From Tetracentron sinense (Eukaryota; Streptophyta; Magnoliopsida; Trochodendrales; Trochodendraceae), in contig CM026571.1 of assembly GCA_015143295.1 (NCBI GenBank), positions 7,940,501-8,004,500 on the forward strand: 64,000 bases of DNA, read 5' to 3'. A program made the translations under genes and the position numbers. This document shows positions 22,501 to 43,360 of this stretch, piece by piece (the stretch's first letter is position 1; every line of letters begins with the position of its first letter). The notes under the pieces are model-generated. The model ran no database searches and was not told the origin of the DNA. It saw only the letters and a program-made list of their open reading frames with translations.

Positions 22501-25118
22501 ACCAACCAACCGGAGCTGCCTGACACCTGCTTCCTGTTATGCTTGAATTCTGGTTATTGTCAGACAATTAGGCCTATGCAGGTTTGGGTGTGAAATTTTG
22601 AAATGCACTCCTTTTATGTAGAATCTCCCTGGACAAATGAAAGCTTGATGTGCTTCTAGTAAATGACTATTTCCATAACAAACTGAGGTTATTACATCTA
22701 TTTACAGATATCACTAATAAAACCTTTGTTTGTATGAAACAGCATGCTAAACCTCAAATATACCTTCCCAGTTCCCACCATCCAATCAGTGGCCTATTAA
22801 CTCTCCTAATTCTGCTTTGTTAATTTACTTGTCCATCTATCTTTGTTTATGGTTTAATTTTTTTTTCTTTTGTGGCCATATTTGTTTAATATTTTGAATC
22901 CATGGGATTTTCTCCCTCTCTTTCTCTCTGTATTTTATTTTAAAAATATTTCTGTAATGCTTTATCCGAAATTGTTGCATTGTTGTGGGCTGAGTTTTCA
23001 AGTGTTTTCACTACCCTAGTGAATGAACAGTGTTTCCACTTGTTCACTGTTAGTCGGTTGCAGTTTTTAACTATCCACAGTTTACACCCCTAGGAATGCA
23101 TACAGGCCTTGACTTTTGCAACTATTGTCACATGGATGCACCAGTCAATTACGCTATATGTAGAATAGATTCTGATTTTTTGGAATTTGTGTGTTTTGTC
23201 TCTTCTTTCTTAGTCACCTAGTGCAGCCAAAAGACCAAGATTAGCAAGCATTGCAACAAGGAGACAGCTTTTCACAGGCCAGACCTCAAAGTTAAACGAG
23301 ACTGTAGAAGATGAACAAATCTTGGAATCTTCAGTGACAGAAGGATGTGTTCCGCTATCCAAACGTGCTTCTGATCAGTGTAAAGTACCAAACTTCACCT
23401 TAACAGGAACATTGATCTTTTACCTGATTTCTCTCTCTCTCTCTCTCTCATGATGGACTGATGGAGATGTAAAAACACTTCACAATACACAGTAACACAA
23501 AAACACCTTTGAGCGAATCACCAAAAATGCCTCTCATCCAACCTTGAACAGACTATACATCCTGTTCAAGAAGAGACACAAAATGGGTTTGAGCTGCTGA
23601 GAACTTTGTTTAGGTTCATGGTCATGTGATGAACCGAGATTTAAAAACTATATGAATGCACAAAAGCACCTCCAAGCGAATCACCAAAAATACCTCTCAC
23701 CCCACCTTGAGAGACTACCTCCCGGTCAAGAAGAGATAAAATGGTTTTGAGCTTCTGAGAACCATATTTTTTTTTATGGAATTGTTATCATGTGACACAC
23801 ACACACACTCTAAACTCACACACGCAAAATTAATTAAAATAACATGTTAAGGATTTTGAGCTTCTGAGAATCATCTTATGGAGTATTTGATTGCTTACAA
23901 GAAATTTTCACTGTATAACTTGGTCATTGCTTTGCTACAGAAAAATGTGGAAATCAACAATGCTTGAATTCAGAACCTTTCAGAGGGTTAGTGATTAGCC
24001 ATTGTGTTTTAAACTTCCTTGCTTCTGATTTGAACTTACCGTATGCTGCAGGTGGGGAAAGCACTGACCTGAGTGGCTTAGCCCTGCCAGAGGCCACGGG
24101 ATCAAAGAAAAGGCAAGTGAAGAAGGATTGTGATGAAAACATGTTTGATTCAGCTCCCGCAGCTGAGATCTTGCCGGAGAAGCAAGCACTAGTGAATGGG
24201 GTGGAAAAACAGAAAAACAGAGAGACTCGGCTTAGCTCAAGCAAATCCAAGGACAAAAAAGAGCTTATCTTGCCTCGCCGTGCTTCGAAGAGACTTGCTG
24301 GGATCAAAGCTGACCAGGCACCAGATTTGGAGACCAGTAAACGAGTTCGTAGAGACACAGCTAAACAGTCAGATGGTTCTGGGACCAGTAACCGAGCTCA
24401 TAGTGTTGCAACTAGACAGTCAGGTGAGCTTGAAGAGCACCCTGAAGAAATCAAAACTGAGAAAAAGGATGATGAGAAGGCAGAATGGAATGACACAGCC
24501 AAACAGTCAGATGGTTCTGGGACCAGTAACCGAGCTCATAGTGTTGCAGCTAGACAGTCAGGTGAGCTTGAAGAGCACCCTGAAGAAATCAAAACTGAGA
24601 AAAAGGATGATGAGAAAGCAGAATGGAACGACACAGCTAAACAGTCAGATGGTTCTGGGACCAGTAACCGAGCTCGTAGTGTTGCAGCTAGACAGTCAGG
24701 TGATCTTGAAGAGCACCTTGAAGAAATCAAAACTGAGAAAAAGGATGATGAGAATGCAGAATTCCCATTCGGAGATTCATGGCCAGACCCATGCCTCGAG
24801 TTTGCATTCAAGACTCTTACAGGCGCAATTCCGGTGGAGGATAATAAGGCAATTCAGGATTACTTCCAACAACTCAGCACATCTCAGACCCAAACTGACA
24901 ATGGCTTGGCATTGCTAGATATTGGCTTGGATAGCTCTTGCCAAACCGAACTTTTGGACCAGTTTGAAGCATTGAAGCAGCCTGTATTGGGACAGCAGTT
25001 TCCAGTGAAGCCCACATTTCCATCCCCTGGATATATTGGCTTAACAAACTCAAGTGAGAATGCTCAACAACCCAGTGGGGAGGGGAACAAAGAATGTTTA
25101 ACAAAGGTAAACCAGTAG
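4530..25118 (+). CDS. MBD13: Methyl-CpG-binding domain protein, MBD13 type (3' part of gene, 4-5 exons visible)
   Basis: Nuclear reader of methylated CpG; the family binds methylated DNA through MBD folds. Supported exons, all GT/AG and frame-consistent: 4530-4673 (C-terminal half of one MBD, YYTNLETGQKFQSK), 17534-17710 (N-terminal halves, GLPPGWIKEIKVRKG), 17853-17996 (C-terminal half, YYTDPVTGYVFRSEKDVLRY), 23214-23379 (basic linker) and 24054-25118 (last exon, stop TGA/TAG region at 25116-25118). The last exon holds the plant signature PRRASKRLAGI, three 46-residue acidic/basic repeats, and the conserved C-terminal block FPFGDSWPDPCLEFAFKTL. Joining 23379 to 24054 makes a Cys codon across the junction. 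The 5' exons and start are not in view. The introns are huge (12.9 and 5.2 kb) and packed with transposons. A half-exon at 4811 is decayed but can be skipped in frame. Family is certain; functionality is not. Confidence 0.85.
4811..4916 (+). pseudogene. Decayed MBD half-exon of the MBD13-like gene
   Basis: After an acceptor CACCAG, the frame reads a clear N-terminal MBD half (PKWLPKGWIMQIKT, stop, KSGPKVGEKYK). The in-frame TGA sits where the family has Arg; CGA to TGA is a single C-to-T change. The expected donor after the Lys codon reads AAGTTACC rather than AAGGT, so the 5' splice site also looks lost. Its C-terminal partner half-exon was not found before 17.5 kb. The neighbouring exons begin and end in phase 0, so skipping this exon keeps the frame. 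Confidence 0.7.
5160..5995 (+). mobile_element. LINE remnant (zf-RVT region and 3' end)
   Basis: Broken frames at about 5390-5720 read like the reverse-transcriptase zinc-binding region of plant LINEs (SFFLWNATLNKILTC, then TNRCFLRLQAKETEYHLLFHC). They contain several stops and a frameshift. The tail ends near 5985 in a short A run. A G/C-rich repeat at 5164-5270 precedes it and may be a separate element. Dead copy. Confidence 0.6.
6902..7190 (-). mobile_element. LINE remnant, zf-RVT fragment
   Basis: The minus strand encodes NSDMTISNRCLMCGKEEESDNHLLIHC, the Cys/Cys/His/Cys pattern of the zinc-binding domain that follows reverse transcriptase in plant LINEs. About 70 residues are readable; the rest is lost. 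Confidence 0.6.
7446..7650. mobile_element. Small inverted-repeat element, possibly hAT-type MITE
   Basis: The left end TTAGGGGTGATACTC and the right end GAATACTGACACCCCTAA are imperfect inverted repeats. The inside is the CGAGCTTG-rich sequence common in plant hAT MITEs. No clear target duplication was seen. Confidence 0.4.
8788..8795 (+). promoter_or_regulatory. TATA box of the LTR-like insert
   Basis: CTATAAATAC about 250 bases into the TG...CA insert, followed by a transcribed-region-like stretch, fits the U3/R border of an LTR read on the plus strand. Confidence 0.4.
8883..10222. mobile_element. TIR element with ATATCG-rich ends (non-autonomous)
   Basis: The left end AGGGTTCGCAATATCGATA and the right end (reverse complement AGGTTCTGAATGTCGATA) are imperfect inverted repeats, rich in repeated ATATCG/CGATAT. 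The interior is AT-rich with three copies of an AAGGGTAATGCTA-type repeat at 9430-9615 and no transposase. TGGGAA occurs next to both ends, but the target duplication is not clean. It resembles the element at 11954-12960 in end structure. Confidence 0.5.
10713..11265 (-). mobile_element. 5'-truncated LINE
   Basis: The T run at 10713-10722 is the poly(A) tail read backwards. Upstream on the minus strand are zf-RVT and post-RT residues (DRKEFVDHLLLNC, AIWKERNSRVFEN), typical of plant L1-type LINEs. Only the last 550 bases are present. It lies inside the LTR-like insert. Confidence 0.65.
11954..12960. mobile_element. hAT-like element with perfect 8-bp target duplication
   Basis: Ends CATGGTTCAAAATATCG and CGATATTTTAAACCATG are inverted repeats, with repeated GTATCGG motifs inside each end. 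Flanking TGTATAGG at 11946-11953 and 12961-12968 is a perfect 8-bp duplication, as hAT transposases make. There is no transposase frame, so it is non-autonomous. A short internal direct repeat (ATCATAAC...GGCTCCTGATAAG) lies at 12569-12670. It interrupts the copia integrase. Confidence 0.8.
15205..15822. mobile_element. hAT-like element
   Basis: The inverted ends TAGTGAGTCAAGACA and CTTGACTACACTA are flanked by AATGATAC (15197-15204) and TATGATAC (15823-15830), a 7/8 matching 8-bp duplication. GCCTGGG/GCGAGGCG-type subterminal repeats are present at both ends. No coding capacity. An (AT)n run lies at 15288-15311. Confidence 0.65.
15831..17311. other. Intronic sequence without a gene; microsatellite and LINE-like tail
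   Basis: No supported coding exon was found. A (CT)n tract followed by (AT)n lies at 16874-16916. From about 16960 a sequence ending AATAAAGTGTGCTATTGATC plus a 16-base A run (to 17136) looks like the 3' tail of a plus-strand LINE or another poly(A) retroelement. Confidence 0.45.
17321..17461. mobile_element. Foldback MITE (Mutator-like, 9-bp duplication)
   Basis: This is a 141-base stem-loop with GAGGAATGCTAG...CCTACTCTCA at one end and the complement at the other. It is flanked by ATTTATTCA (17312-17320) and ATTTATTTA (17462-17470), an 8/9 match, which suggests a Mutator-type 9-bp duplication. It sits 72 bases before an MBD exon. A second copy is at 47803-47975. Confidence 0.65.
17534..17695 (+). 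repeat. 81-bp in-frame tandem duplication inside an MBD exon
   Basis: Two copies of 81 bases, starting at 17534 and 17615, each encode VVVEKATADGLP..WIKE.KVRKGT. Only the second copy is followed by the rest of the exon and then by the C-terminal MBD half. Each copy starts after AG|GT, and the first ends in a donor-like AAGTAAGG, so the duplication also copied potential splice sites. Confidence 0.85.
18589..19833 (+). mobile_element. LINE remnant with duplicated 3' tail
   Basis: Plus-strand frames read post-RT LINE sequence (GPHGVGLWKGI, FKLGNEAKIQFWHDVWCG) and then a zf-RVT region broken by stops. The 3' end, about 95 bases ending GATTTACCGATTAAAAAAAAA, is present twice in tandem (to 19741 and to 19833). 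It is 5'-truncated and dead. It lies in the 5.2-kb MBD intron. Confidence 0.75.
20028..21556 (-). mobile_element. LINE remnant, interrupted by a hAT MITE
   Basis: Minus-strand frames carry the end of the RT domain and the linker (KNYNLVKWSLVCSPVEEGGL, NKALLGKMV) at 21550-21248. LWRKVVRDKYG and GPHENGLWKGI follow at about 20880-20800, then zf-RVT residues to 20028. The break at 20913-21244 is a later MITE. Several stops and frameshifts. Opposite in orientation to the LINE at 18589. Confidence 0.75.
20913..21244. mobile_element. hAT-like MITE, CATAG family (copy 1)
   Basis: It begins CATAGATACAAAC and ends GATAACTGTG, imperfect inverted ends. Its flanks CTCTTAGA and TTCTCAGA match at 6 of 8 positions. 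The interior shares a TTCG..CGAATAATTC stretch with the element at 27244-27810. It disrupts the LINE reading frame, which resumes on both sides. Confidence 0.55.
21557..23213. other. Intronic sequence without a supported gene
   Basis: The first 300 bases resemble the right end of the LTR-like insert at 11440-11738 (shared TTTGAAATCCTC, CCTACATCA). A T-run-headed, GGCCC-containing stretch at 22092-22330 may be a reversed poly(A) retroelement fragment. No exon with conserved motif was found. Confidence 0.4.
23496..23768. repeat. Diverged tandem repeat in an MBD intron
   Basis: Two units of about 110-115 bases (23496-23612 and 23660-23768) share GCGAATCACCAAAAAT, CCTCTCA and GTCAAGAAGAGA-type blocks and a TTTGAGCT.CTGAGAAC end. 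They lie between a (CT)n microsatellite at 23431-23449 and the last exon. Confidence 0.65.
24354..24767 (+). repeat. Three 138-bp coding repeats in the MBD13-like last exon
   Basis: Units start at 24354, 24492 and 24630, each 138 bases (46 residues): DTAKQSDGSGTSNRA, then SVAARQSGELEEHPEEI, then KTEKKDDEKAEWN. They differ at only a few sites, so the amplification is recent. The repeat is charged and probably disordered. Confidence 0.9.
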
Positions 25119-34006: not shown

Positions 34007-34672
34007 TCATGGGCAAAACACAACCTTATAGTTAGTACCAGAGGGGCAAGTGAATGTGCTAGTTGGATCATCCTTGGGGTAACTGTAAGCATCTGGGCAC
34101 CTATCCTTGAAGAACTTTGAATATGTGGTGGGTCCACAGGTCCAGGAGTTGCAACAGTATTCATCAGTCTTGAAGACGGTACACGGGTTGTTACACCCTC
34201 CAGGGGCCTTCAATTCGGTCGGGCATTGCCCGTTGATATCCGCCGAACACCGGATCCCCCGGCAACCGCCAGTGGTCGGGCTAAAGTCCATAGGGACATT
34301 GAATCCATCAACGAGAGAGATGTCAAGGAAATCCATGTTATTGAATTGGTTCAACGCGTATTCGGCTAGGGTGTTGGGAGGGGAACCATAGCCTTGGCAT
34401 TGTAATAGACCACCACAGTCACCAGTTTCGCACTTTCCTTGGCCATTGCCATCGAAGTTACAGTTGGTTCGGGGCCAAATGCGGGCTTGGGTCGTGCCTG
34501 GGTTCACGTTGATGGTCCAGGATTGGCCTTGGTTGAGTTGCTGGCCTCCGCCCGGTACAGCGCCGGCCCAGACTGTGTAGCTGCATTGGTTTACGATCTC
34601 GAAGGTGGCTGCATGGGTGAAGCTGAAGAGGACACTACTAAACAGAAGGAAGCAAAATATAAGGAGGTTGCT
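34007..34672 (-). pseudogene. Thaumatin-like / osmotin-like protein gene, start removed by LINE insertion
   Basis: PR-5 family secreted defence protein. The open frame reads a hydrophobic signal segment ([19 protein letters not shown]), then mature [20 protein letters not shown] and the signature [16 protein letters not shown]. It ends [15 protein letters not shown] with a stop at 34007-34009. All 16 cysteines expected for eight disulphides are present, and there is no internal stop or frameshift over about 220 codons. The frame has no ATG. Its first codons (SNLLIF) abut LINE sequence at 34673, and reading on into the LINE meets a stop before any ATG. A TATA box with short leader lies on the far side of the LINE at 37541. 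The body is intact, so the insertion is recent. Expression is unlikely unless splicing or another promoter rescues it. Confidence 0.85.
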
Positions 34673-37523
34673 TGATGGATACCCAGGGGAGTTTTACCAG
34701 AAGAATTGGGATGTGGTGGGGAAAGAGATTTGTGAAGCTGCTCTAAGCTTCCTAAATGGAGGCTATCTATTGAAGGAGATGAACCACACATTTATTGTTC
34801 TGATTCCTAAGGGGAGAAATCCAGAAAGGGTTGGTCAGTACAGGCCTATAAGTCTCTGTAATACAACATATAAGGTTATCTCCAAGCTTATGGCCAACAG
34901 ATTAAAAGTGTTCTTCAATGACATTATCTGTGAAAATCAATCAGCTTTTATAGTAGGAAGACAAATCCAAGACAATATTATCATTGCCCATGAAGTAGTT
35001 CATTATCTAAAGAAAAGGAAAGAAGGTAAGGAGGGGTACATGGCTTTGAAATTGGATATGGCAAAGGCTTATGATAGAGTTGAATGGGGTTTCTTGGCAA
35101 TGGTGCTCAAAAAAATGGGTTTATGCCAAAGATGGATTCAACTAATATACCAATGCATTTCTACAGTATCATATTCAATTTTGATAAATGGTGAGCCTAA
35201 AGGAAGAATCTTTCCTACCAGAGGAATTCGACAAGGTGATCCCATATCACCATATCTGTTCATCCTGTGCGCCCAAGTTCTGTCTATAAATCTAAATACT
35301 GCAATGGAGGAAAAGAGGATTAGTGGGATTAAATTGTCTCAAAACTGCCCCACTATCTCTCACCTATTTTTTGCTGATGATTGTTTTGTGTTTATCAAAG
35401 CTAATGTAAAGGAAGCTACTGAAGTTCTGAAAATTCTAGATGACTACCACAAAGCTTCTGGTCAACTAGTAAATGTGGAAAAATCAGGAATTATTTTCAG
35501 CAAGAATACTAAAGAAGATATCAAAGAAAAGATGATTGAATGTCTAAAGTTCAAGTATGTTGCATCTACAGAAAAATACCTGGGTACTCCTATATTCTTT
35601 GGAAAATCTAAGTATCAGATTTTCTCTCATATTAGAGATAGGATATCAAAGAAGTTACAAGGTTGGAAAGAATCACTTTTATCTCAAGCTGGTAAAGAAA
35701 TCCTGATAAAATCAATAGTGCAAGCTATTCCAGCCTATACAATGCAATGCTTCAGAATCACAAAGAAGCTATGTGATGAAATTGCAGCTATGATGGCTAG
35801 ATTCTGGTGGGGGCAGAAACTAGAAGAGAGGAAGATTCATTGGGTTAGCTGGAATGAGATATGTCGGAACAAAGTGGATGGTGGTTTAGGATTCAGAGAT
35901 TTACAAGCTTTTAATTTGGCTTTGTTAGCTAAGCAAGGCTGGCGGATTCTTATGAACCCCACTTCCCTCTGCAGTAGAATTCTCAAAGGGATTTACTTTC
36001 CGAAGTCTGAGTTTCTTAAAGCTGGAAAAGGTGTTCGTCCATCATGGGGATGGAATAGTCTTTTAGAAGGAAGAAAGGTGATGCTAGAAGGAATAAGATG
36101 GGCAATTGGTAATGGAGAATCTATACAAATATGGTCAGATCCATGGATTCCAACAGCTGAAAAATTTAAAGCTAAGAGAACCGAGAGGACTGATTGTCTG
36201 AATTTGAGAGTTGTAGACCTCATTGACACCACAAAAGGTAGTTGGAAAGAACAAATGATCTTAGACCTTCTAAAACCAGAAGATGCTCAAGAGATCCTCA
36301 AGATGGCATTCAGTATCCAAGGAAAGGCTGATAGATTAGTGTGGCACTATACAAAAAATGGGATATATTCTGTCAAATCTGGTTATCAAACTTGCAGGCA
36401 AAGAGACAACAATGATAAGAGCAAAGCATCTTGTTCTGAATCAGCTGTGCCAAAGGATTTGTGGAAGGAAATATGGAGAGTGACTTCAGTAAATAAAGTT
36501 AAACATCTACTGTGGAGATGTTTGAAGAATACTTTGGCAGTAAACCTAAATCTGTGCAAAAGGAAAATTAAAGAAGATGACAGATGCCCAATGTGTAAGT
36601 CCATGCCTGAATCTATACCTCATCTGTTCATAACATGTGAGTATGCTAGGGAGCTATGGTTCAATATCAAAGAAAGGGTGGAAATCCCTTCGAAAGAGCC
36701 AAATTTTTTCAATACTTGGTGGGAAGGGGAATGGAGAAGACTGAGACTGGACAAAGATGGGCAAGATTTTTTGGGATTAATGGCTAACATCATCTGGGCT
36801 ATATGGAGAGCTAGAAATAATCGGGTGTTCTCTAATAAGTTTGAAGAAACAAATGATACATTCAAAATAGCCTGGTTGCAATTTGAAGAATATAAATCTG
36901 CTATGGATGACCAGAAGAACCAGCTACTGAAATCCAGAGTAAATGGGAGTGTTTCAGTTAATAGGAAGGAAATGTCAAAGTTTGACTTTATTATCAAATG
37001 TGATGGTGCTGCCCAAAGGGATAGGGAAGCTGCTGGAGCTGGGGTGGAGATTCTGAATAACTCGGGTGGAAGACTTACCACATTAATTGTCCCTTTCAGT
37101 GGTGGATCTTCAACTCTGGCTGAAGCTCAAGCTATAAAAATTTGTGCCTTATTGATTGATCAGTATAGATGGGAGAATGTGTTAATTCAATCTGATGCAA
37201 AGGTGGTTGTTGATGCTATTAATGCTGGATCAATAACCTCAATTGCAGTTGATGCCCAAACTTCTATTCTGGACTGTATTGCTTTGCTGAAATCTTCAAA
37301 AAATGTTCAACTAGAGTTCATATCTAGAGATCAGAATGGGGGAGCCCATGAGTTGGCCAAGATGGCCTTGTATAGAAGCAGGAAAATTCTGTTTGATAGA
37401 AGAATTATTGGTGAGCAAAGATCAAGTTTTGATCGGCCAAACCAATATGTACATGTAATATGATGTTTTTGTTTGAGTTCAATAAAGTGGATTACATTGA
37501 AGACCAAAAAAAAAAAAGAAAAA
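34673..37523 (+). mobile_element. 5'-truncated LINE (L1-type) with intact RT, zf-RVT and RNase H frame
   Basis: One uninterrupted frame runs to the stop at 37461-37463. The RT domain has LKLDMAKAYDRVEW (about 35045), GIRQGDPISPYLF (about 35225) and FFADD (35367-35381). SGQLVNVEKS follows, then a zf-RVT region (CPMCKSMPESIPHLFITC, about 36585). A plant-type RNase H comes next (IIKCDGAAQRD, AEAQAIKI, IQSDAKVVVDAI, to about 37370). AATAAA lies at 37481-37486 and the poly(A) tail at 37506-37523. The N-terminal endonuclease is missing: the element starts in mid-frame at [13 protein letters not shown], so it cannot move by itself. The first codons of the apparent frame (34605-34672) are antisense thaumatin sequence, not LINE. 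No clear target duplication flanks it. Confidence 0.92.
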
Positions 37524-37540
37524 AGCTATAGGCCTGACGG

Positions 37541-37550
37541 GTATTTATAG
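37541..37550 (-). promoter_or_regulatory. TATA box of the separated thaumatin-like promoter
   Basis: CTATAAATAC on the minus strand lies about 18 bases upstream of the LINE poly(A) junction and points toward the thaumatin-like frame. Without the LINE it would sit a few tens of bases before the coding start. Confidence 0.55.
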
Positions 37551-38947
37551 TTGAAAGGATGGCTATGGTGAGGTCCCTAGGTGATAACGTGGTTAATATC
37601 TTGGAAAATTCGTTAGATTTCTATACACTTGACTTGATGACTTGTTAATGAAAAGTCAAGAAAATTTAGGTAATCTTGACATGGACTATGAGCCAGGCGC
37701 AGCCCATTAAGATAAGTTATCGAAGGATCTGGGAAGCTAACTCCAAGCTCCCAACACACACACACACACACACACACGTATACACAATGTTAATTGGTCA
37801 ATAGGCGGTGGTAGGGGTGGTAATTGGTTCGAGTGTGATCTACAAAGAGCACTCTAAATCCAACCTAAGCTATTGGACTTTGCTGCTGAGACCACAAAGG
37901 GCTGAGACCACGCCAAGACTTTGCTTGTGATGCATGGATCTCAAATTTTCATTAAATTCTTTTTAATAAAATTCATACATCACAAGCACGGTCTCACAAG
38001 CACGGACTCATGGTCTTGGCCCTTTGCGGTCTCACTAGCATTTTCCAAGCAATTATTAATGAGTTGAACACTCTAAATCCAACCTAAGCTATTATTAAGC
38101 CAAGTTGCCAACCTTTGTTTGTTTCTAGAGAGGCAGAAGTAAAATTCACCATAACCTCTTCTGTGAAGTACTATTCCATGTGAAAATAGAAGAAGAGAGA
38201 GACGGCATCAATCTCACACGTACAACTGTTAGAAACCAAACTGGACATTAATCTGATTCATACAAGGTGGGTCCCATCTTAAAACGCATGGACTAAAAAG
38301 AAGTGAAGAAAAGTCCACCCTATAAAACCAGATAGTAGTACTCCCATAGATCCAGGACTTCTCAGTTCTCACAGGAGGCCCAACTCAGTACCCACAGAGC
38401 GATGATATTAAAAACAATCTACGGGGATCAAACTCCATTGATTCATTATTCAATGGTTCCTAAGCAGTGTGACGTAAGGAATACTCATAATGATTGCTTA
38501 TGTGAACCTGATTTAATGGTGTATTGAGAATTTAAATCATTTAATATGGTACGTGGAGAGGTACTGGATGTTTTCGCTCTCGTCAATTTTAAGGCCAAAG
38601 TCATTGAATGTCCTCTGGTATCAAACTTGGCAAACTGAGATGCTCATATAGCCAAAAACAAATAGGATAGATTGATACGTAACGAGAAAAATGCTTCAAG
38701 GGCCTATGGAAAATAGGCTAGAGTACTTTTATTAGGCACAACGATTGTCTATTCCTAAAACGCAGTTTGCGGAAGAAGGAAGATTTTTCTCCTCGTCCAG
38801 CAACTAAAGATAAGATAAGGATAGTTTACACGAAGCTTGGCCAGTCGATGTTGTTGGGTATGAATTATGAGCCTACCACATTCCTTTGGATTAGATAATC
38901 TAACTCAAATGTTAATTGTCCAGTGAAGACTGTTTGATGGTGATGAT
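37551..38947. other. Former upstream region of the thaumatin-like gene, no coding seen
   Basis: A (CA)n microsatellite lies at 37754-37776. A 25-base direct repeat (CACTCTAAATCC-AACCTAAGCTATT) at 37850-37874 and 38070-38094 flanks a 195-base palindromic insert. A plus-strand TATA-like CCTATAAAACC lies at about 38319, with no convincing gene after it. Confidence 0.5.
37875..38069. mobile_element. Small palindromic insert between 25-bp direct repeats
   Basis: The inner ends GCTGAGACCACAAAGGGC and GCCCTTTGCGGTCTCACTAGC are inverted, with a second pair (TGTGATGCATG / CATACATCACA). The flanking 25-base direct repeat is longer than normal transposase duplications. Confidence 0.5.
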
Positions 38948-39337: not shown

Positions 39338-42300
39338 CTCTCCACCTTGACTTCAATTCTGTTCTGCTTCGGGTGAAGGATAACTGCATCTCTAAAGATG
39401 CTTTCACACTCTCCCTCAAGGGTGTGGACTTCCATTTACCTCATCGAATATGAACCAAGTTCAAGCAATGCTTAAACTTGGATATAGTGACCGACTTTGT
39501 CATCATATTTGAAGGGTTCTCACTTGTGTGAATCTTTTCCAACAAAATCTCATTCTCAGATATCGCGTCTTTAATGAGGTGGAAGTGCACATCAATATGC
39601 TTCGTTCTTGAATGGTAAACTTGATTCTTCGCCTAATGTATAGCACTCTAACTGTCACAGTGAAGAATCATCTTCTCCTGCTTCACTCCCAGTTCACCAA
39701 CTAGGCTTCTCAATCATATAGCTTCCTTAGTTGCTTTTAAAGCTGCCATGTATTCAGCCTCAGTCGTTGACAATGCTGTAGTAGGCTGCAACATGGATCT
39801 CCAACAAATTAGTCCTCCACTCAGTGTAAACAAGTACCCTATAGTAGATCTCATCTTGTCCAAGTCCCCAGCATAATCGGAATTGACATACCCAACTATC
39901 TTATAATTGTCATTCTTGTCAAACAAGACTCCGACATCAATGGTACCCTTCAAGTACCTCAGAATACAGTTCACTGCTTGCTAGTGGTCATTTCCAGGAT
40001 TCGTTATGTAGCTACTAAAAACACTAACACATTATGAGATGTCAGGTCTAGTGCAAACCATGACAAACATCATGCTGCCCACGGCACTTGCAACGGAAAT
40101 TCATTCATCTCTTTTTTCTCTTCATCTGTCACTGAATATAACTGAGATGATATCCTGAAATGTACTGCCAATGGAGTACTCGCCGGTTTTGCATCTTGCA
40201 TATTGAACCTTACAAGGACCCTCCTTATGTACTTCCCTTGGGATAGAGATAGTCTTCCCAATTTCCTACTCTTCGAATTTCCATGCCTAGAATCACCTTT
40301 GCTGCACCTAAGTCTTTCATCTTAAACTCATTACGGAGTTGCTTCTTCAATACCTTCATTTCTGACATGCTTTTGACAGTAATTAACATGTCATCCACAT
40401 AAAATGCTAAGTATATGAAGGAACTACCTCTAAGTTTTCTAAAATAGAGATAGTGATCATACTCACTTCTGGAATACCCATTCTTCAGTATGAATTAGTC
40501 AAACCGCTTGTACCATTGTCTGGGTGACTGCTTCAGACCATACAGGGACCTCTTCAGTTTGCAGACCTGATCTGCTTTTTCCCTCATCTAAAATCCCTCT
40601 AGCTGTCACATGCATATATCTTCATTTAGCTCTCCGTGTATGAAGACTGTTTTCACATCCATTTGTTCAAGCTCCAGGTCTTGCATAGCTACTATCGACA
40701 ACATTGTTCTAATAGAGATATGCTTTACAACTGCTGAGAAGATTTCATTGAAATCTATTCATTCTCTTTGTGCAAAACCCTTTGCAACCAGTCTCGCATT
40801 GAACTTTACTTTACTGCTTTCAATGGTAGGTACCTTCTTTCTGAAAATCCACTTGCAACCAATGACTTTCTTCCCCTTAGGTTGTTCTACAAGATCCCAA
40901 GTCTGGTTCTTGTGTAGTGATTCTATCTCTTCATCCATAGTCTTCTCCCACTTTCTATGATCACTATCTGACACCGCTTCCTTGAAACTGGATGACTCCT
41001 CATTCTCAATTATGAGAGTAAAAGTTACCATGTCTATGTCATCATCATATCTTCTGGGTGCTTTTTGAACCCGTTGTGATCTCCGTGGCTGTGGCTGTTG
41101 GTCAACTCTCTCGACTTGAGATGGTTCTTTATCACTTTCATCTGATTCAGATCTATCCAGCTTCACCTGAACTGAATGCTCACTACTGCCAATTGCATCA
41201 TTACAATGCTCCTCCTTTTTCATCATGACAGTCTCATCAAAAACTACATCCCTTCTCACAACAATCTTCCTTGTTTTAGGATCGCATAACCTGTAGCCTT
41301 TAACTCCTTTATGGAAACCCAGAAAAATACACTTCCTTGATTTTGCATCAAGCTTACTCCTCAGATCACCGTACATATGTGCATATGTTGGACAACCAAA
41401 AATTCTTAACATAGAAAAATCATAGGGTTTACCTGACCAAACCTCTTCTGGTGTCCTCAAATCTAAAGCTTTTGATGGTGATCTATTTATTAGAAAGCAT
41501 GCTGTGTTGATTGCTTCTGCCCAGAAGTCTTTCTTCAATCCAGCACTGATCCTCATACTCCAAGATTTCTCTAGGAGTATTTTGTTCATTCGTTTCTGCT
41601 GTGGAGTTCTGTGTGTGGTGAAATCTCGAGCAATACCCTCATCTTCACAAAATTTTGTGAATTCTGCAGATGTATATTCTTTTTCATTGTTTGACTTCAG
41701 ACACTTCACCTATTTTTTGGTCTGCTTTTCAACCCCGGCTTTCCATTGCTTGAAAATACCAAAAACATCAGACTTTTTCTTCATGTAGTACACCCAAACT
41801 TTTCTCGAGAAATCATCTATAAATGTAATATAATATAGAGATCCCGACAGTGACTTCACAGGGGTTGGTCCCCACACATCTGCATGAACATACTCTAGAA
41901 TTCCCTCACTGCAATGTAAAGAGGTCTTGAACCTCACCCTCGACTACTTCCCGAATACATAGTGGTCACAGAACTGTAGCTTGCAGGTTTTGATGCCTTT
42001 TAAGAGCTTTCTACTATGAAGCTCCATTAAAGCCCTCTCGCTCATATGACCCAGTCTCCTGTGCCATAGTTTGGTCTCATCATCCTATTATGATAGACCA
42101 ACGCGGTTCCATCTGTTATGGTATTTCCTGTCATCTTGTATAGGATTCCAGTCCTTATGCCTTTCATGATAACAAGGGCTCCCTTGATTACCCTTAGAGC
42201 TCTACCTAAAGCTATGTATTTACACCCAGCAGCTTCCATCGTACCCAAAGAAATCAAATTCTTTTTCAGGTCCAGTACATGCCTAACATCAGTTAGGGAA

Positions 42301-43360
42301 CAACACCATCGAACATCTTCATTCTGACAGTACCTATCCCTACTGTCTTACAAATGACATCATTCCCCATCAAAATTATACCCTCATCATTGGTTTTATA
42401 TGTGTCAAACCAATTTCTATTTGGACACATATGATATGAACACGTGGAATCTAAAATCCAAGAGTCAAAGTAGGTTTCCTTACTTGTATGGGTGCAAAAG
42501 GTGTTGCCGCTGCTACTTTCTTCCGAAACTGCATTAGCTTGGTCTGAGGCTTTCCCTTTCCTCCTTTCCGGTTCCTTTTCTTGTTTCTCCTTTAGGATTT
42601 TACAATCTTTCTTAATGTGACCATATTTCTTGCAATGATGACATTGAGGTCGAGTCATTCCAGACTTTGATTTCAACATTCCTCTTCTTTGTTCTTTCTC
42701 TTTTTCCCTATCTTTTTCTCTTTCTCTAACAAATAAACCCTCAGCCTGAGTATTTTTCTCTTCCTGATTTTTCTTTCTCAAATCGTTTAAGAGTAGGGTT
42801 GCTACTATGTCTTCTAACTCTATAAAATCATTCCCATAGAGTAGAGTTGTAACGAGATACTTATAAGAGGGTGGAAGTGAAAAGAGAAGTTGTAGGGCAT
42901 GATCTTCATCGCTGACCTTCTCATCAATGTTTGCTAGGTCATTGACTATTTTGTTGAGAGCATTGATGTGATCTGTGAGATCCCTACCATCCTTCATCTT
43001 GGTAGTATGAAGATTCTGCTTTACGAATAGCCTCTTTGACAATGATTTTGTCATATATAGGCTCTCAAGCTTCATTCAAAGCTTCGGTGCTAAATCCTCA
43101 TTGACCACATGATAGAGAACGCCGTCAGATAGGCTTAACCTAATGGTGTTCGCCGCCTTTAATTCCAGATCTTCCCAATCTTCATCGGATATTGACTCCG
43201 GTTTCTTTTCTTTATCTTTTAGGGTTTTGTGTAAACTTTGTTGAATCAATAGATCTTTCACCTGACTCTGTCATAATCTGAAGTTGTCATTCCCATCGAA
43301 TCTTGCAACATCGAACTTGGCGCTGGAACTCTTCGATGCCATTGCTTCGAATCTAACCTG

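Follow-up and report, generated by a model that had tools for sequence, protein, structure and literature searches.

A probable recent natural knock-out of a thaumatin-like gene by a LINE inserted at its start codon in Tetracentron sinense

In the stretch of 64,000 nucleotides of Tetracentron sinense DNA analysed here (the window), which spans C21:7940501-8004500 of the assembly, an osmotin-type thaumatin-like (PR-5) gene is found without its start codon, exactly where a young LINE copy begins. The gene is probably a real and recent natural knock-out, produced by a mechanism that is already known. The explanation that we favour, with a probability of roughly 0.8, is a LINE insertion-mediated deletion which would have struck a working PR-5 gene in one event. 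The result would most likely be a fresh null allele, because the promoter is cut off by 2.85 kb of LINE sequence and no start codon is left.

The retained body of the gene lies uninterrupted at 34007..34675 on the minus strand, from the codons for SSNLL... to the stop codon, with the first codons gone; in the list of open reading frames it appears as a frame of 228 codons (34007-34693, minus strand). The Pfam Thaumatin domain (PF00314) was recognised in this frame with an E value of 8.2e-63 over the whole profile (positions 1-209 of 209), the closest solved structure is 1z3q (E 5.3e-117), and 4l2j and 4bct are further solved relatives. The mature protein (34010..34609, minus strand) has 200 aa, 16 cysteines and the thaumatin signature, a stretch of 16 residues. 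It is preceded by a signal peptide remnant of 22 aa (34610..34675, minus strand), which lacks the initial residues of the paralogues (Met-Ser-Phe in L004). A stop-free body with all 16 cysteines, as the first-pass annotation had described it, was thus confirmed. With the osmotin-type PR-5 proteins of known structure the mature part aligns over its full length, sharing the 16 cysteines and the signature; by contrast, the copy in the window is without the first codons, the leader and a contiguous promoter.

To place the missing start, we relied on paralogues. A protein search of the 1.16-Gb assembly gave 52 matches, the window's own counted. The nine nearest of these paralogues (L002-L010) all begin with ATGAGNTTYTC, so that the ATG is found at the expected place in 9/9 of them and the LINE does sit at the start codon, as first proposed. 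In the window, TATCCA is followed directly by TCAAGCAACCTCC, versus ATGAGCTTC followed by TCAAGCAACCTCC in L004. The codons ahead of the break are antisense LINE sequence, in which a TAA in the frame of the gene (34694..34696, minus strand) shuts the frame upstream. No in-frame ATG is present between this TAA (34696-34694) and the signal peptide, and the first one in the retained frame is codon 114, at 34336; the reported lack of an ATG before the signal peptide therefore stands, and what remains is a gene remnant rather than a complete translatable gene with a start codon. Seven of the nine paralogues have uninterrupted frames of 225-242 aa, and these seven were used for Ka/Ks; the frames of L007 and L010 are broken, running from the ATG for 81 and 104 codons, respectively. 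Five of the close paralogues (L002, L004, L008, L009 and L010) are clustered at C1:4.846-4.874 Mb, a group that mixes whole and broken frames, with the frame break of L010 and fragments at 4863436-4863949.

The insert, about 2.85 kb in length, is a 5'-truncated non-LTR retrotransposon of a young subfamily (34676..37505, plus strand) with reverse transcriptase, zf-RVT and RNase H regions, followed by an A-tail (A12 G A6) at 37506..37524, on the same strand. A Pfam scan with E up to 0.001 found RVT_1, zf-RVT and RVT_3, and no endonuclease domain; the copy is a fragment of an L1-type element, presumably of the L1 clade. Seven further copies (L022-L028, with L027 a duplicate of L023) place the 5' edge at 34674 by homology, since each of them still reads LINE sequence at the point from which the window reads the gene. 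The truncation point varies in the family, since L023, L024, L025 and L028 each break elsewhere, and L022 and L026 have a further ~1.5 kb of shared sequence towards the 5' end. A 929-codon open stretch is found in L022 and L023, and is broken in L024, L025, L026 and L028. The LINE frame of the window, which ends at 37463, had been called undamaged: it is indeed open, but the copy is truncated and has no endonuclease, so that an open frame does not amount to an active element; it accompanies youth and is no evidence of activity in this copy. As for the assembly itself, L023 (C7:37372025) and L027 (C364:329422) are one LINE insertion with identical flanks on two contigs; the C364 copy has many small gaps and probably represents an alternative haplotype, noisy in sequence, that has remained in the assembly.

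The youth of the insertion was evaluated from an alignment of seven copies (window, L022-L026 and L028), in which the window LINE carries 8 private substitutions in 2832 bp, corresponding to 0.28% (Poisson 95% range 3.5-15.8 events, or 0.12-0.56%). The nearest copy, L022, differs at 14 of 2832 sites (99.5% identical). Six gap columns were private to the window; since its row stopped short of the A-tail, they probably correspond to tail sequence. Taking 1.5e-9 to 7e-9 substitutions per site and year, rates which may not be those of this species, the central age of the insertion would be about 0.4-1.9 million years; this is an upper figure, as part of the eight substitutions may have been present already in the source copy, and counting error alone permits roughly twice that age. 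Before the insertion, purifying selection had acted on the gene through most of its past, as indicated by Ka/Ks values of 0.16-0.30 against the seven paralogues (0.16 for L002, at Ks 0.51). Since the insertion only about 2 substitutions would be expected in 666 bp, and a dead frame of this length would still be free of substitution stops with a chance of about 92% (85-97%), assuming that 4.5% of substitutions make stops and ignoring indels. Given this chance, the perfect body is what is expected of a freshly killed gene and is no evidence that it functions now. Thus, of the earlier statement that both gene and LINE look recent, the part on the LINE is upheld by its private substitutions, whereas the intact gene frame alone is a weak argument.

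On the other side of the insert, as had been noticed, a TATA box remains: TATAAATACC (37540..37549, minus strand) begins at 37549 and lies 25 nt from the LINE tail, across the ~2.85-kb insert from the gene that it served. It belongs to a retained promoter region (37525..37714, minus strand), which matches the DNA upstream of L002 over 34 bp around the TATA box (37540-37573) and that upstream of L004 over 86 bp (37629-37714). As a rule, transcription starts about 30 nt from a TATA box, which here is roughly the position at which the LINE tail begins. The distance from the TATA match to the ATG is 105 nt in L002, 83 nt in L008 and 65 (or 96) nt in L003, and no TATA match was found in L004, L005, L006, L007, L009 and L010, which therefore stay outside the estimate of the deletion. 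If the leader in the window was in the range of the paralogues, about 50-90 bp of the target would be missing, comprising leader, ATG and two more codons, with the deletion and its size resting on paralogues at Ks 0.51 or more whose leaders differ in length. The suggestion that a few bases including the ATG were deleted was therefore correct for the ATG, but too modest, as the loss is larger and takes the leader too. A MITE-like inverted-repeat element of about 170-190 bp (37871-38058) lies ~320 bp upstream of the TATA box and has at least 83 matches, the window's own counted, in many places on both strands (40 of 1191 candidates scored).

At the 5' junction, LINE and gene overlap by 3 nt, TGA (34673..34675, plus strand), which are common to the LINE (..CCTGATGG..) and to the start of the paralogous gene, e.g. 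in L004 (..GCTTGAGAAGCTCAT, plus sense). A comparison of the flanks (157 x 160 bases) revealed no identical stretch of at least 8 bases, in agreement with the report that no target duplication is visible. Among matches of at least 6 bases nearer the joins, the sole one was a 7-mer which lies at the 5' join but recurs 108 bp past the tail, and is not placed where a duplication would be. The absence of a target duplication, together with the leader and first codons missing with respect to the paralogues, is the pattern of a LINE insertion-mediated deletion.

How common a missing duplication is in the family was estimated from other copies; a search with the LINE 3' end gave 24 matches, the best 10 of which were examined. 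Copies were left out of the count when they were a duplicate contig (L027, of L023), had an unclear 5' end (L029), represented a split copy (L030/L036), had the 5' end outside the stretch examined (L022, L026) or were places already counted under other identifiers (L057-L060, L062-L066). Target duplications were found in 2 of the 8 copies with both ends located, namely L024 (17 bp, lying slightly away, by a few bases, from the homology break) and L028 (18 bp, right at the break), and in none of the other six (window, L023, L025, L039, L049 and L061). With six of eight copies showing none, the lack of a duplication is not rare in this LINE family, which may often insert with deletions; some of the duplication-free copies may instead reflect later rearrangement. 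Five-prime inversion (twin priming) was discarded, since no LINE sequence was found in the 5' flanks examined for the window, L023 (134 bases), L025, L039, L049 and L061.

From this anatomy we infer the following order of events. A young LINE copy would have inserted by target-primed reverse transcription, close to where transcription of a working PR-5 gene begins. A minus-strand nick just downstream of the TATA box would have given the priming end, now the A-tail junction. Reverse transcription would have halted within ORF2, and the end of the cDNA would have been joined through the 3-nt overlap to the target some 50-90 bp deeper in the gene, at codon 4. Leader, ATG and codons 2-3, lying between the two joins, would thus have been lost instead of the target being duplicated, while promoter and coding body would have survived, parted by 2.85 kb of antisense LINE.

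A longer history in two steps is rather unlikely, though it is the best of the alternatives. A longer LINE would have entered promoter or leader with a normal duplication, and a later deletion, joining at the TGA overlap, would have removed in one piece the 5' part of the LINE, the duplication and the gene's leader and ATG. The 5' join looks alike under either history, copies with ~1.5 kb more 5' sequence exist (L022, L026), and two close copies, L024 and L028, do carry duplications; a duplication could then have been lost later with the 5' part of the LINE, which weighs against a single step. On the other hand, two events would be required in the short time allowed by 8 private substitutions, and the differing break points of L023, L024, L025 and L028 indicate that truncation on arrival is common, so that one event is enough.

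That the gene is still alive seems very improbable. The antisense LINE would have to be spliced out of a transcript from the retained promoter so as to give a usable signal peptide along with a new start. Otherwise, translation would have to begin at a non-AUG codon, for which the near-cognate ATA at 34660 is only a possibility. With any ATG allowed there are 8 solutions with donors of 7/9 consensus bases or better, one of which has a credible leader: a donor GT at 37078 (7/9), joined to the acceptor AG at 34672-34671, gives a leader of 22 aa, and pyrimidine-rich AG sites also occur within the signal peptide. However, this solution has four ATGs upstream, and under the first-ATG rule no single-intron solution was obtained from 88 donors x 5 acceptors (start assumed at 37519). 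Moreover, 165 of 300 random surrogates gave some in-frame solution and 120 of 300 one that keeps the hydrophobic core; splice rescue thus finds no support, its solutions being at chance level. An unspliced transcript from the retained TATA box would meet 34 ATGs before the gene, none of them in frame and open to it, and the seven paralogues used have uninterrupted frames. Least probable of all is an assembly artefact in which a LINE copy was misjoined into the gene: the joins are known from the assembly sequence alone, and a noisy duplicate contig occurs in the assembly at least once (C364, L027), but both joins show insertion hallmarks (A-tail, truncation point, overlap), the LINE copy has private substitutions, and the target bases are gone, not merely interrupted.

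Since the insertion is so young, a presence/absence polymorphism is plausible. No second version of the insertion site was found, by protein search or by DNA search (40 of 1191 candidates scored), in the one assembly examined, where these searches gave a single copy. Tentatively, and with the odds somewhat against it, the insertion may be still segregating, with other haplotypes carrying leader and ATG and a LINE subfamily still jumping. If so, one PR-5 gene would be a clean natural null in some individuals and not in others.

The favoured one-event deletion has precedents. Han et al. 2005 are said to have described L1 insertion-mediated deletions in human and chimpanzee, likewise L1 insertions with deletion of the target, though in mammals (cited in PMC10368883). 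With non-LTR elements, a second nick placed upstream can lead to target deletions, and microhomology has been implicated at mammalian junctions (PMC2881922). The closest plant case is BrLINE1-RUP in BrCER2 of Chinese cabbage, where a 130-bp insert and a 40-bp deletion lead to a premature stop codon in the first exon, with mapping in support (PMC10368883). As in the window, this is a partial LINE-1 in a plant gene, without target duplication, with loss of target bases and with loss of function, which for the window gene is probable. The differences are in the insert (2.85 kb here), in the missing target, estimated here at 50-90 bp including leader and ATG, and in the genetic mapping that backs the BrCER2 case. 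In a limited literature search we found no report of a thaumatin-like gene broken by a LINE. The window is a new instance of a mechanism already known, with the same outcome as in BrCER2, here at the start codon, and would add a start-codon case to the plant LINE insertion-mediated deletion already in print (PMC10368883).

It is also a readable example of gene death, in which apparently one event took promoter contact, leader and start codon and left a body that looks perfect, and which automatic gene finding could wrongly annotate as a live gene. For the wider biology its effect is limited, as the plant still has relatives of the gene whose frames are whole (the seven used).

Other features were observed elsewhere in the window. 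A frame at 39714-39980 has no Pfam match, nor does an open frame of 399 aa at 23919-25118 (plus strand), which contains three near-identical tandem repeats (unit with DTAKQSDGSGTSNRAHSVAARQSGELEEHPEEIKTEKKDDEKAEWN). Beyond the promoter lie pieces of a copia-type LTR retrotransposon (40759-43075, minus strand) with gag, Pol_BBD, SH3 and RVT_2, and an open frame with a retrotransposon gag domain is found at 537-1727, also on the minus strand.
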